Below, piece after piece: positions 26,247 to 30,083 of a stretch of DNA of 64,000 nucleotides; within the stretch, counting starts at the first letter, position 1; each line of letters begins with the position of its first letter. Both the position numbers and the translations under genes were made by a program. The notes beneath the pieces were generated by a model. That model made no database searches, had not been told where the DNA came from, and was given only the letters and a program-made list of their open reading frames with translations. Origin of the DNA: Pseudonocardia sp. EC080619-01 (GTDB lineage: Bacteria; Actinomycetota; Actinomycetes; Mycobacteriales; Pseudonocardiaceae); assembly GCF_001420995.1 (NCBI RefSeq), contig NZ_CP012184.1:5378501-5442500 (forward strand). The letters run 5' to 3'.

Positions 26247-27028
26247 GAGTCTCCTTCGATCAGTGCGTCGCGGGCGGCGCGCGCGGCACCCAGACCCGCC
26301 TTGAGGAAGCCGACGTCGGAGCCGGCGGTGACCATGCGGAAGCCGCGGCCGGACTCGGTGACCGGGTCGCCGGTGATCCCGGCGGCGATCCCGGCCGCGG
26401 CGCAGGCCGAGACGATCCCGGCGACGGCGGCCCGGTGCGGCTCCTCACGCGGCCCGGTGACCGGGTCGAGGCCGAGGCTCACGGCGAGGTCGCCGGGCCC
26501 GATGTACACCCCGTGCACGCCGGGGACCGCAGTGATGTCCTTCGCGTTCGCCACGCCCACCGCGGTCTCGATCATGACCAGGCACAGGACCTGTCCGTTG
26601 ACGGTCACGGGGTCCGGGCCCAGGCCGTAGGCCGAGCGGGTCGGGCCCCAGCTGCGCACCCCCGTCGGCGGGTAGTGCACGGCCGCCGCGGCCCGGCGGG
26701 CCTCCTCCGCCGACTCGATGCCGGGCACGATCACGCCCTCGGCGCCGGCGTCGAGCGCCCGCCCGACGAGCACGGGGTCGTTCGCGGCGACCCGGACCAG
26801 CGCGGTGGTGCCCGTCCGGGCGGTGGCGCGCAGCATGTCGACGGGCGTGGCCAGCCCGCCGACGCTGTGCTGCTGGTCGAGGTAGAGGTAGTCGAACCCG
26901 GCCACGGCCAGGGTCTCCGCGACGTGCGGGTCGCCGGTGTGGCAGGCCAGCCCGACGGCGGTGCCGCCCGCCTCCAGGATCCCGCGGAGGCGGTTGGGGT
27001 GGGTCTCGGTGGTGACGGCGTAGCTCAT
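26243..27028 (-). CDS. HpcH/HpaI-family class II aldolase
   Basis: A 261-residue member of the HpcH/HpaI aldolase family, Mg-dependent pyruvate aldolases that split 4-hydroxy-2-keto acids. Visible motifs are LDQQHS early, IVPGIESAEEA, MIETAVGVANAKDI with the metal-binding Glu, and GPGDLAVSLG with the metal-binding Asp. The ATG at 27028 overlaps the amidohydrolase stop by 4 bp; a much longer frame extends upstream but is out-of-frame translation of the amidohydrolase gene. The pathway role, cleaving a hydroxy-keto acid to pyruvate plus aldehyde, is inferred from family and operon. Confidence 0.9.
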   Translation of the reverse strand: MSYAVTTETHPNRLRGILEAGGTAVGLACHTGDPHVAETLAVAGFDYLYLDQQHSVGGLATPVDMLRATARTGTTALVRVAANDPVLVGRALDAGAEGVIVPGIESAEEARRAAAAVHYPPTGVRSWGPTRSAYGLGPDPVTVNGQVLCLVMIETAVGVANAKDITAVPGVHGVYIGPGDLAVSLGLDPVTGPREEPHRAAVAGIVSACAAAGIAAGITGDPVTESGRGFRMVTAGSDVGFLKAGLGAARAARDALIEGDS

Positions 27029-28128
27029 CCGAGCGCCCTGTCCAGCCGGTACCAGTGCCTCGCCGAGGCGTGCATCACCTGGGGCCGCATGGACTCCGGC
27101 ATGAGGTCCAGCACCCGGGAGAGATCGTCGGTGTGCAGGTGCGGGTAGTCCGTGGCGAACAGCAGGAGGTCCTCGGACCCCAGCCACTCGATGATCTTCC
27201 GGGCGTGCTCGTCCGGGCCGAGGTCGGCCGGGGCGATGGAGAACCGGAAGTGGTCCCGGATGATCTCGGTGGGCAGCCGGTCGACCCACGGTATCTCCCG
27301 GCGCAGGCCCTTCCACTTCTTGTTGATGCTCCAGCTCCAGGTGGGCACCCACCCGAAACCGCTCTCCAGCATGGTGACCCGCATGCCGGGGAACTTCTGG
27401 AAGATCCCCTCGTAGATCATGCTGGTCATCTGCGCGCCGTAGACCTGGATCTCCGCCGCGTACTCCTCGGCGTACCAGGAGGCGTACCCGGTCGGGGACG
27501 GTGCGTCCTCGGAGGTGCCGCCCCAGCTCAGCCCCATGACCAGGTCGTGCCGGGTCATCGCCTCGTAGACCGGCCAGAACACCCGCTGTCCGTAGAGCCG
27601 TTCCGAGCGCACCGGCATGGTGACCTGCACGATCCGCGGGTGCCCACCGACGCGCTCGATCTCGGCGGCGGCCGCGGCGGGATCGCGGGCGGGGACCACC
27701 ATGGAACCGACCAGCCGTGGGTCGCGGTCGAGCCACTCGGCGATCAGCCAGTCGTTGACGGCGCGGGCCAGCGCCGCTGCCCAGTCGGGGTGCCGGAGCG
27801 AGTCGACGCCGTAGGCGGTGTTGACGAGCGCGACCTCGGTCCGCCAGGGGTCGAGGATGTGGTCCTGCAGGTCCGCCAGCCGGGACGCGGGCGGGCGGTC
27901 CTCGGGCCGCCACTCGTCCCGTGCCGTGGTCGGGGCGTTCGGCGGGTAGGCGAGAGCCTGCCCGTTGGGGCCCCGCCACCCGCGTTCCCGCGCGCCCTGC
28001 ACCCACACCGGGTCGGTGTAGGGGAAGAGCGCCTCGAGCGAGGGCGGGGTGGCGTGCACGTCGCAGTCGATCACCGGGCCGGACCACACGGCGTCGCGCG
28101 TGGTGCCCTGCAGCAGGGGGGTGGTCAT
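27025..28128 (-). CDS. Amidohydrolase-2 family (ACMSD/LigW-like) hydrolase or decarboxylase
   Basis: A 367-residue TIM-barrel metalloprotein with the N-terminal DxH motif in VIDCDVHA (Asp23, His25) and the C-terminal metal Asp in FATDYPH. This group includes metal-dependent decarboxylases and C-C hydrolases of aromatic breakdown. A second, related but distinct amidohydrolase lies four genes upstream in the same operon. The ATG at 28128 is only 9 bp from the IS110 insertion point; the present upstream sequence offers a weak AGGGA site, whereas the rejoined pre-insertion sequence would have had AGGAGG. Confidence 0.88.
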   Translation of the reverse strand: MTTPLLQGTTRDAVWSGPVIDCDVHATPPSLEALFPYTDPVWVQGARERGWRGPNGQALAYPPNAPTTARDEWRPEDRPPASRLADLQDHILDPWRTEVALVNTAYGVDSLRHPDWAAALARAVNDWLIAEWLDRDPRLVGSMVVPARDPAAAAAEIERVGGHPRIVQVTMPVRSERLYGQRVFWPVYEAMTRHDLVMGLSWGGTSEDAPSPTGYASWYAEEYAAEIQVYGAQMTSMIYEGIFQKFPGMRVTMLESGFGWVPTWSWSINKKWKGLRREIPWVDRLPTEIIRDHFRFSIAPADLGPDEHARKIIEWLGSEDLLLFATDYPHLHTDDLSRVLDLMPESMRPQVMHASARHWYRLDRALG

Positions 28129-28144
28129 GAGGTGTCCCTAAGGT

Positions 28145-28345
28145 CGTAGGTGTTCGGGGTTGGTGCCCCGGATGCCCGGGACGACGGGGTGTGGCTGATG
28201 AGGTGTTGTCGCTTCGGTGGCTCGGAAGGAATGGCCGCCCCGTCGTGCTGGACAGGCCTGGCCACTGATTCGGATCTGTGCGGACCGTCGCTGATTAGGG
28301 ACCTGATGGCGGGTTGTCCACGGGCGTGACCTGCAACGACAGGAG
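28145..28345 (+). ncRNA. Probable IS110 bridge RNA
   Basis: The non-coding DNA between the left end and the transposase gene folds into the parts expected of a bridge RNA. A small hairpin lies at 28155-28170. A 9-bp stem (28181-28189 with 28238-28246) closes a 48-nt loop. A second stem (28249-28254 with 28315-28320) closes a 60-nt loop. The first loop contains ATGAGGTGT (28198-28206), identical to the left target flank at 28127-28135. The second contains ATTCGGAT (28268-28275), identical to the right end at 29584-29591, and TTAGGG (28295-28300), complementary to the left core and end at 28136-28141. IS110 bridge RNAs guide recombination by such target and donor loops. Exact RNA ends are unknown. 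Confidence 0.8.
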
Positions 28346-28352
28346 CCTGCGC

Positions 28353-29576
28353 GTGGCGCAACGGCCAGTGATCTGGATCGGGATCGACGTCGGGAAGAGG
28401 ACGCACCATGCGTGCGCGATCGATACCGACGGCAAGGTGGTGTTCTCCCGCAAGGTCAGCAACGACCAGGCCGCGATCGAGGCGTTGCTGGCCCGCGCTG
28501 CGGAAGCGGCCCAGGACGTGCGGTGGGCCATCGACCTGACCTGCAGCTATGCGGCGCTGCTGCAGGTGGTCCTCACCGCGGCCGACCAGCAGGTGGTCTA
28601 TGTCCCCGGTCGGGTCGTCGACCGGATGAGCGGCGTGTTCCGGGGCGAGGCCAAGACCGACGCCCGTGACGCGAAGGTCATCGCCGAGACCGCCCGCATG
28701 CGCGGCGCCGACCTCACCACGGTCACCGCCACTGATGAGACCACTGCCGAACTGGCCCGGCTCGTGGCCCATCGCGAGGACCTGATGGCCGACTGGGTGC
28801 GCGGGGTCAACCGGCTGCGTGACCTGCTCGGGTCGATCTTTCCCGGTCTCGAGGCGGCATTCGACTATTCCACCCGCAGCGCTCTGGTGCTGGTCACCGG
28901 GTTCCAGACACCCCAGGCCCTCCGGGACGCCGGCGAGGCAGGGGTGATCGAGTACCTGCGTGCCCATCGGGCGTGGGCACCGGGTATTGCTGCGATGGCC
29001 GCCACCGCGGTCGAGGTCGCCCACGCCCAGACCGTGGCACTGCCCAGCGAGACGCGGACCGCGATCCTTGTTGCCGGCCTGGCCCGACGACTGCTGGAAC
29101 TCGACCGGGAGATCAAGGACACCGACAAGCTGATCACCACCGTGTTCCGCTCCCACCCGGACGCGGCGATCATCGAGTCGCTGCCCGGTCTCGGACCCAT
29201 CCTGGGCGCGGAGTTCCTCACCGCCACCCACGGCGGTGTCGGCCCTGAACTGGGCGGATTCACCTCTCCAGGGCGGCTGGCCTCCTACGCCGGACTCGTC
29301 CCGGTGCCCCAGGACTCCGGCCGGATCAGCGGGAACCTGCGTCGCCCACGACGCTACAACCGCCGCCTGCGGCGAGTGTTCTACATGGCCGCACTGTCCA
29401 GCCTCAAGGTCAATGGCCCGTCCCGGGCCTTCTACCAGCGCAAACGCAGCGAAAGAATGCTTCATACCCAGGCTCTGCTCGCCTTGGCCAGACGCCTGGT
29501 CGACGTCCTGTGGGCCCTGCTGCGTGACCGGAGGATGTTCACCATCACCGCACCACAACCCGCTATCGCGGCTTGA
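28353..29576 (+). CDS. IS110-family transposase (bridge-RNA-guided recombinase)
   Basis: A 407-residue recombinase, the usual IS110 length. The N-terminal RuvC-like DEDD domain starts at IGIDVGKRTHHAC with the first Asp and has later acids in AIDLTCSY and KTDARDAKVIAE. The C-terminal Transposase_20 domain contains LPGLGPILGAEFL and SYAGLVPVPQDSG, whose Ser sits where the catalytic serine of IS621-type enzymes is expected. The GTG at 28353 follows AGGAG at 28341-28345 with 7-nt spacing; an upstream TTG would add 13 residues that overlap the bridge-RNA region. The gene looks intact, so the element may be active. Confidence 0.95.
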   Translation: MAQRPVIWIGIDVGKRTHHACAIDTDGKVVFSRKVSNDQAAIEALLARAAEAAQDVRWAIDLTCSYAALLQVVLTAADQQVVYVPGRVVDRMSGVFRGEAKTDARDAKVIAETARMRGADLTTVTATDETTAELARLVAHREDLMADWVRGVNRLRDLLGSIFPGLEAAFDYSTRSALVLVTGFQTPQALRDAGEAGVIEYLRAHRAWAPGIAAMAATAVEVAHAQTVALPSETRTAILVAGLARRLLELDREIKDTDKLITTVFRSHPDAAIIESLPGLGPILGAEFLTATHGGVGPELGGFTSPGRLASYAGLVPVPQDSGRISGNLRRPRRYNRRLRRVFYMAALSSLKVNGPSRAFYQRKRSERMLHTQALLALARRLVDVLWALLRDRRMFTITAPQPAIAA

Positions 29577-29578
29577 CA
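29573..29578 (+). promoter_or_regulatory. Outward -35 box at IS110 right end (circle-junction promoter half)
   Basis: A perfect TTGACA overlaps the transposase stop codon, 14 bp from the right end. The left end carries TAAGGT at 28139-28144. If the ends are joined through one CC core, the boxes lie exactly 17 bp apart, giving a strong promoter that reads into the bridge RNA and transposase. Junction promoters of this kind are known for circular IS110 intermediates. In the integrated state, the -35 box could also act with a chance -10 in the flank. Confidence 0.7.
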
Positions 29579-29592
29579 CGGTCATTCGGATT

Positions 29593-30083
29593 CCTCCTCG
29601 TGCGGGGCGCAGTGACAGCACGACGTAGTCGGACTCGACCGCCACGTCGACGGTCTCGACGGTGTACGGGCCGGGGATCCGGCCCATCTCGCCACGGTCG
29701 AGGGCGGCCCGGACCTCGTCCGCGCCCTCGAGGGCGACGCCGAACGCGCGTGCCCGCAGCGCCGGGTTCCAGGAGGATCGGCCGGTCTCGACGTCGAACT
29801 CCCAGTTGTGGAAGGGGCAGGTCACGAACGTCCGGCCCTCGTCGAGGCGGACGTCGCCGGGGGCGCTGGACTCGATCTGGTTGACGACCCCGCCCTCGCA
29901 CAGCGGCGCCCCCAGGTGGGGGCAGCGGTTGAGCATCGCGTAGTAGCGGCCGCCGATGTTGAACACCCCGATCTCGCGGCCACCGGCCTCGACGATCCGG
30001 CGCTCTCCCGGTGGGATCTCGTCGACCCGGCCGACGACGAACCGGGTCGTGCGGCCCGGGCGCCGCGTGGGTGAGGTCGTCAC
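29593..30083 (-). CDS. Rieske [2Fe-2S] ferredoxin-like protein, 3' end displaced by IS110
   Basis: A Rieske-fold protein with both cluster motifs: Cys54-Pro-His56 in CPHLGAPLCEG and Cys89-Pro-Phe-His92 in CPFHNWEF, then the C-terminal strands up to about residue 160 (ESDYVVLSLRP). The domain is complete, but the native stop is not present. The frame stays open antisense through the whole IS and ends at 28125, which would add about 490 unrelated residues. The protein would shuttle electrons between the VanB-type reductase and an oxygenase. The GTG start overlaps the stop of the FMN dehydrogenase by 4 bp. Whether a functional short form is still made is unknown. Confidence 0.85.

Follow-up and report, generated by a model that had tools for sequence, protein, structure and literature searches.

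Recombination by insertion sequences of the IS110 group is guided by a bridge RNA. In IS621 the guides of this RNA follow one another in the order left target, right target, left donor, right donor (PMC11208160), and the −35 and −10 boxes are divided between the two ends of the element (PMC11208158). IS900 of Mycobacterium avium subsp. paratuberculosis has the target motif CATGNNNNNNTCTCCTT and an antisense open reading frame (ORF), hed, without start signals of its own (PMC8141618). According to the title of a 1997 paper by Doran in the reference list of the same article, IS900 targets translation initiation signals. Here we describe an IS110-group element in a 64,000-nucleotide (nt) stretch of Pseudonocardia sp. 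EC080619-01 DNA (contig NZ_CP012184.1, positions 5,378,501 to 5,442,500; hereafter the window). A sequence-only reading of this DNA had proposed a bridge RNA whose guides can be read against the insertion site and the ends of the element; it did not recognise the target as the Shine-Dalgarno (SD) and start-codon region of genes. We find it very probable that the element is guided by a bridge RNA and aimed at translation initiation regions.

Copies of the element and their insertion sites

The host genome (7.2 Mb, three contigs) contains 15 full copies of the element (L009–L023) and one copy in two pieces. All full copies measure 1459 bp from CC to CC; 14 are identical and one carries a single substitution. 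The stretch common to them is exactly 28136..29594, and the sequence outside it differs from copy to copy. The CC core named in the sequence-only reading is present at either end of every full copy, and comparison of the copies with one another, and with uninterrupted loci at the site of the window copy, revealed no target duplication beyond it. Loci orthologous to this site but lacking the element were found in three relatives (L196, L197 and L198), with about 86% identity over about 900 bp that include both flanks. Two of them, L196 and L198, have CCTCC (complementary to GGAGG) at the position taken by the element, gaps in the alignment leaving the exact base ambiguous. For L010 the alignments of relatives stop about 75 nt short of the core, and for L012 they stop 4–25 nt short of it, with only L213 realigning rightward; the empty site itself is shown in neither case. 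At the plasmid sites L013, L015, L018 and L019, related plasmids are occupied as well (for L015 and L018 as judged by coordinates next to transposase matches). Two Pseudonocardia strains isolated from Apterostigma dentigerum, EC080610-09 and EC080625-04, have plasmids with near-identical transposases and flanks.

The sixteenth copy (L024, G000:C1:4855116-4861076) is split by another inserted element with two ORFs that have, by eye, the appearance of an IS21-type transposase and an ATPase helper. The pieces of L024 have 5 bp of the query in common, which suggests a 5-bp duplication. In another genome, G046, six of nine copies of a 91%-identical element (L055, L058–L060, L062 and L063) carry a foreign insert in the left end, directly after its first bases and at about the same position despite differing right flanks. 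In most of these copies the insert ends near AGAGGTC..TTCAGAAC.

Insertion between Shine-Dalgarno sequences and start codons

A start codon lies 6–11 nt to the left of the core in all 15 full copies (ATG in 14, GTG in one), and in nine of them the distance is 7 nt. Starts were picked by a script as the ATG, GTG or TTG located 3–16 nt left of the core, reading outward, that opens the longest ORF. In 13 of the 15 copies this ORF has at least 98 codons, and a comparable start test at random flank positions was passed by 574 of 2560 (22%). The insertion of L019 has a counterpart on a related plasmid, where an SMP-30-family gene is annotated as starting, by coordinates, 7 nt from the core. The CC core is the GG of the SD sequence, and the element is therefore inserted between the SD sequence and the start codon, oriented opposite to the gene. 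This is targeting of the IS900 type, with a single orientation.

The calculated energy of pairing between the upstream region and the 16S rRNA tail averaged −10.0 kcal/mol before insertion and −6.0 kcal/mol after it, which indicates that insertion usually parts most of the SD sequence from the start codon. Random 18-mers of the genome gave −4.5 kcal/mol, 27% of them pairing as strongly as the post-insertion mean. When the element is removed in silico from the window (28126-28135 followed by 29593-29700), an upstream frame, Rieske-like by eye, enters the downstream start without a stop codon. At the orthologous loci of genomes G031 and G025 the upstream frame ends, by eye, in a TGA that overlaps the start codon.

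Target-loop guides match the flanks

The sequence-only reading had noted that the left flank of the element, ATGAGGTGT at 28127-28135, reappears in a predicted loop, and both occurrences were found base for base. From −9 to −1, the commonest base of the 15 left flanks is that of this left guide at 9/9 positions, and the commonest bases at +1 to +5 of the right flanks, TTCCG, fit the right guide at 5/5 positions in addition to the CC core. The right guide, CGGAAGG, is itself SD-like, and the left guide is the complement of spacer and start codon. The hexamer GGAAGG at 28224-28229, earlier described as pairing imperfectly with the right flank, is present and in the window copy does fit poorly, at 2/5 bases past the core; the true guide includes the preceding C. 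Copies L009 to L023, in this order, match the left guide at 9, 8, 8, 7, 7, 6, 8, 7, 4, 7, 7, 3, 2, 1 and 2 of 9 positions and the right guide at 2, 3, 3, 5, 2, 2, 2, 5, 4, 4, 4, 3, 3, 5 and 5 of 5. The left flank of the split copy is CATGAGGTGT followed by CC, with a left guide match of 9/9.

As controls for the sites, 1279 SD-like GG/start pairs were taken from 460 kb of the host genome, a set that includes false starts. The left guide without its AT matched the sites at 4.6/7 and the controls at 1.97/7; for the right guide the values were 3.47/5 and 1.82/5. With either guide the observed value was reached in 0/20000 draws. When controls were restricted to a spacing of 7, it was reached in 0/20000 draws with the left guide and in 13/20000 with the right guide. 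A search of the genome with the guide-derived sequence CATGAGGTGTCCTTCCG at up to three mismatches gave 21 matches, all with three mismatches and two of them element copies, and the reversed pattern gave 9.

One hundred relatives were searched, with matches in 70 genomes, and a scan of named genomes gave 553 candidate loci, of which the best 80 were used. The loci come from Pseudonocardia, Amycolatopsis, Streptomyces, Nocardia, Kitasatospora, Gordonia, Cryobacterium and others. The test handled 114 loci (L009–L023, L055–L073 and L095–L174); outside it lie L024–L054 and L074–L094, including a group with a recombinase about 35–38% identical. A strict parser read 68 loci and dropped 46, at the left end (8, six of which are the G046 copies with the foreign insert), the right end (11) or the loop pattern (27). 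With L122, L140 and L147 also set aside (left flank masked or missing) and identical loops merged, 43 distinct loops were obtained. Each was given the best score of a few registers, own and foreign flanks being scored identically. The left guide matched its own flank at 7.84/9 and the flanks of others at 4.84, the right guide at 5.93/7 and 4.05, and in both cases 0/20000 permutations reached the observed value. The own flank was best or tied best for 33/43 left guides and 25/43 right guides. Among relatives the target loop varies with the flank. A looser parser (103 of the 114 loci; 60 and 58 loops) pointed in the same direction (7.67/9 vs 4.66; 5.22/8 vs 3.95). It misplaces some right guides and the L070 loop, and the strict parse was relied on.

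In 27 of the 43 distinct loops the left guide starts with nAT and the right guide is SD-like. A long ORF starts at the expected distance from the core in 35 of 60 distinct relatives, compared with the 574 of 2560 random positions given above. By eye, the cores of relatives are CC and also CT and TC. Gene-start targeting is widespread in the clade and not universal, because the 35–38% group (L075–L084, L089–L091), L071 and L072 aim elsewhere. L071 and L072 fit GGGGTCAG-type flanks (GGGGTCAGATTTC / GGGGTCAGTTTTC), their left guides matching at 9/9; these flanks resemble ends of other insertion sequences. The left end of the 35–38% group holds a G run, a different guide programme.

Structure of the predicted bridge RNA

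A consensus structure was derived from 33 left ends (alignment A3) and its columns were placed on the window by hand. Its 38 pairs are formed in 97.7% of cells, and in at most 53.2% once the partners are slid; 17 of the 38 show changes on both sides. In the stem of the target loop (helix 2) 10 of 16 pairs changed on both sides, with 98.9% of cells paired, and in the stem of the donor loop (helix 4) 6 of 13 did so. On each measure 0/500 shuffles reached the observed stem covariation, relatedness being uncorrected and the structure, to its advantage, having been derived from the alignment that scores it. The covariation points to a structured left-end RNA with target and donor loops, as expected for the IS110 group. 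The consensus replaces the 48-nt target loop on a 9-bp stem that had been proposed earlier with a loop of 36 nt on a stem of 16 pairs. The proposed order of the four guides holds: it is that of IS621, and the loop shared by the sibling copies corresponds to their commonest flanks.

On the donor side, the earlier matches of ATTCGGAT with the right end and of TTAGGG with the left end and core were both found in place (Table 1). Among relatives the left donor guide matched its own right end at 3.65/5, compared with 3.02/5 when permuted (n = 49; 0/20000). In 52 of 53 the right donor guide has the complement of the third base of the left end. Across relatives the donor loop follows the element ends. 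Both loops thus covary with the DNA they would pair with, target and donor, respectively. In the right end CATTCGGATT-CC (29583-29592) and the target CATGAGGTGT-CC (28126-28135), CAT is equally far from the core, and both guides read G at a position where the DNA reads C. A protein contact might explain this shared departure.

Table 1. Features of the insertion sequence, its predicted bridge RNA and the interrupted gene start (window coordinates)
Feature	Position	Strand	Remarks
IS110-group insertion sequence	28136..29594	+	1459 bp including the CC core at each end
Left core CC	28136..28137	n/a	at both ends of 15/15 full copies
Right core CC	29593..29594	n/a	from copy comparison
Right end / left donor CATTCGGATT	29583..29592	+	
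Predicted bridge RNA, target-binding half	28179..28248	+	stem 28179-28196 / 28233-28248, loop 28197-28232
Left target guide ATGAGGTGT	28198..28206	+	commonest base at −9 to −1 of 15 left flanks
Right target guide CGGAAGG	28223..28229	+	complement of CC and the commonest TTCCG of 15 right flanks
Predicted bridge RNA, donor-binding half	28249..28320	+	stem 28249-28265 / 28305-28320, loop 28266-28304
Left donor guide ATTCGGAT	28268..28275	+	identical to right end 29584-29591
Right donor guide TTAGGG	28295..28300	+	complement of core and left end CCCTAA 28136-28141
−35-like box TTGACA	29573..29578	+	right end
−10-like box TAAGGT	28139..28144	+	spacer of 17 to the right-end −35 box in the predicted circle
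Recombinase ORF	28314..29576	+	420 aa from the listed TTG
Left target, start codon CAT and 7-nt spacer	28126..28135	−	CAT at 28126-28128 (ATG on − strand)
Interrupted gene, amidohydrolase-like by eye	27025..28128	−	ATG end at 28126-28128
SD side of interrupted gene start, left on the right side	29593..29600	−	CGAGGAGG on − strand

Predicted junction promoter and recombinase

Joining of the right and left ends of the window element creates the sequence TTGACA-N17-TAAGGT. A promoter scan of the integrated copy found nothing; the two promoter-like boxes come together only when the ends are joined. TAnnnT follows TTGACN at 17 nt (33) or 18 nt (2) in 35 of 43 relatives, and the exact TTGACA is present in 33 of 43.

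The GTG at 28353, behind CAGGAG, is a likelier start of the recombinase than the listed TTG; in the copies on plasmid NZ_CP012182.1 the annotated coding sequence starts, by coordinates, at the equivalent position. Pfam domains DEDD_Tnp_IS110 (E 1.4e-49) and Transposase_20 (E 1.8e-18) were both detected above cut-off, and a profile of the recombinase finds the IS621 and ISCro4 chains among solved structures. Residues D25, D74, D116, D119 and S335 are invariant in nine aligned sequences, the window's included. The protein thus combines the DEDD and Transposase_20 domains with a catalytic serine, as IS110-group recombinases do. The element does not fit the IS1111 group, whose bridge RNA lies in the right end: here 18 bp, core included, follow the stop codon, and the predicted RNA is in the left end. 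The earlier suggestion that the element could be a new programmable recombinase is plausible.

Antisense frame

By analogy with IS900, the purpose of the site choice could be to provide an antisense hed-like ORF with the SD sequence of the host. Such an ORF would begin at an ATG in the right end (29583-29585, − strand), the core GG being 7 nt away. The SD sequence that now precedes this ATG averages −9.3 kcal/mol over the 15 copies, and in the window the antisense frame is open across the element, its terminal TGA overlapping the displaced ATG. However, the ATG lies in or next to the left-donor sequence, to which the donor loop has to correspond. An open antisense frame is also present in 32 of 64 host ORFs of 350–500 codons, and in only 17 of 43 relatives does the frame come within 200 bp of the left end without a stop. 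Since open antisense frames are this common in host ORFs and partial in relatives, the window frame is no evidence of a gene. We regard provision of an SD sequence to such an ORF as an improbable purpose of the site choice. A conserved antisense product of the hed type was rejected, the frame being open by composition.

Weighing of the evidence

Several observations weigh against a bridge-RNA-guided element aimed at gene starts. Five of the 15 copies (L017, L020–L023) match the left guide at just 1–4 of 9 positions in fixed register, and L020 and L021 are merely moderate, at 3/5, on the right guide as well. Letter shuffles of the 7-nt left guide attain the observed match to the 15 sites in 47/5000 cases, and the false starts among the SD-like controls bear on the comparison with these. 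The left guide lacks full core pairing, because it is followed by TG, not CC. The picked ORFs are short at L015 (50 codons) and L018 (18 codons), and the pre-insertion SD energy is near random at L013 (−5.8 kcal/mol) and L018 (−5.0 kcal/mol). Not all relatives aim at gene starts, as the 35 of 60 with a long ORF near the core and the insertion of the 35–38% group next to C runs attest. Joined ends with fewer than three mismatches were not found in the assembly, where the six matches to the junction at three mismatches are right ends with their flanks. Folded by itself, the single sequence provides weak evidence (z = −1.78, with 10 of 200 shuffles equally low). A search of the window and the element against Rfam gave nothing at gathering score; at E up to 10, two miRNA families and one CRISPR repeat family, far under that score, were the only matches. 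Some of the five copies with a poor left match improve by eye with a shift of 1–2 nt, from which we infer that pairing may be loose or bulge-tolerant.

The poor copies and the shuffles also favour an explanation in which the recombinase protein, or selection for survival at gene starts, sets the sites and the guide matches reflect shared SD and ATG composition. An SD sequence and a start codon are indeed common to most targets, and the right-guide match is partly mere SD likeness. Yet swapping guides among elements that mostly sit at gene starts destroys the match (0/20000), the element's own sites outscore other SD-start sites of the genome, and loops that are not directed at gene starts, such as those of L071 and L072, match their flanks too. 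Site choice by the protein or by selection is therefore very unlikely. That the matches arose by chance in high-GC sequence, with no functional RNA behind them, would agree with the fold and Rfam results; it is contradicted by the flank consensus of the copies and by the covariation of guides, donor and stems, and its probability is negligible. Guidance by a bridge RNA remains the preferred explanation.

Discussion

In the mechanism that we propose, the element would leave its site as a circle in which the joined ends form the promoter TTGACA-N17-TAAGGT, from which the left-end bridge RNA would be transcribed and then bound by the recombinase. The donor loop would pair with the circle junction. 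In the target loop, the left guide would pair with the spacer and start codon of a gene on one strand, and the SD-like right guide with its SD sequence on the opposite strand. Strand exchange by the recombinase would take place at the CC core, the GG of the SD sequence, and expression of the gene so split would be expected to weaken. The mechanism looks like that of an ordinary IS110-group member, and what appears new, here and in many relatives, is guides complementary to translation initiation regions.

More widely, bridge RNAs with an SD-like right guide and a left guide complementary to spacer and start, retuned by lineage, are probably a clade-wide feature in Actinomycetota and the RNA mechanism behind IS900 targeting. 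If so, the gene start is a general, ever-available landing site. With dozens of natural actinobacterial guide-target pairs at hand, pairing rules, core choice and mismatch tolerance can be read from genomes. Being naturally tuned to the gene starts of high-GC hosts, such a recombinase would be a candidate for a tool that places DNA at start codons. Where an insertion parts SD from ATG, the gene is predicted to be weakened in the carrier strain.

The closest parallels are IS621 and other IS110 systems (PMC11208160, PMC11208158), with which the window element shares the recombinase family, a predicted left-end bridge RNA with two loops of two guides apiece, the core included, and −35-like and −10-like boxes split between the ends. 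Unlike IS621, it targets an SD sequence and start codon, not repetitive extragenic palindromic (REP) elements, and has the core CC, not CT; its right guide fits five bases past the core, whereas the right target guide of IS621 is stated as four bases. Asp74, the second acidic DEDD position, faces a Glu in ISCro4 and is Asp throughout the window clade, as read by eye from the alignment. Like the seekRNA of ISEc11 and ISEc21 (PMC11187229), a non-coding-region RNA would select the site, with a circle carrying a junction promoter; the targets there are different, and that paper mentions neither IS900 nor Shine. ISMav6 of Mycobacterium avium has a recombinase 62% identical over query residues 7-386 and a loop of similar build. 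An annotated gene starts, by coordinates, 9 nt from its core, and by eye its left guide fits the flank less well.

IS900-like elements extend the comparison. That of genome G091 encodes a recombinase 49% identical to the window's. Ten loops of IS900-like left ends have CATGTGGT, CATGTTTTT, CATTGGTC, CATCGTTC or CATTTGTC, which carry CAT, as the left guide and GAAGGAG or GAGGAGG as the right guide. The right flanks of such elements start with CTCCT or CCTCC, and their left flanks include GCCATGTTCTTC and GTCATCGGATC; as exceptions, the left flank of L225 is without CAT at that place and that of L230 has CAC. The target consensus of IS900 is CATGN(4-6)-CNCCTT. Gene-start guides are likely to explain the reported targeting, in which case the guides of the IS900 left-end loop would fit CATGNNNNNN and the complement of CTCCTT. 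The left-end motif of IS900, ACCTTTCTTGAAGGGTGTTCGGGG, on which this comparison was made, was looked for in 248 genomes of the genus to which G091 belongs; 5 of them carry it with 1–2 mismatches, and these are the source of the ten loops. A literature search whose reach left most subscription papers and all preprints outside returned no paper tying IS900 to a bridge RNA and, from 2024 onward, none combining bridge RNA with Shine-Dalgarno. The gene-start guides described here would join the targeting of translation signals by IS900, known from the 1997 title (PMC8141618), to the RNA-guided recombination of the IS110 group reported in 2024.
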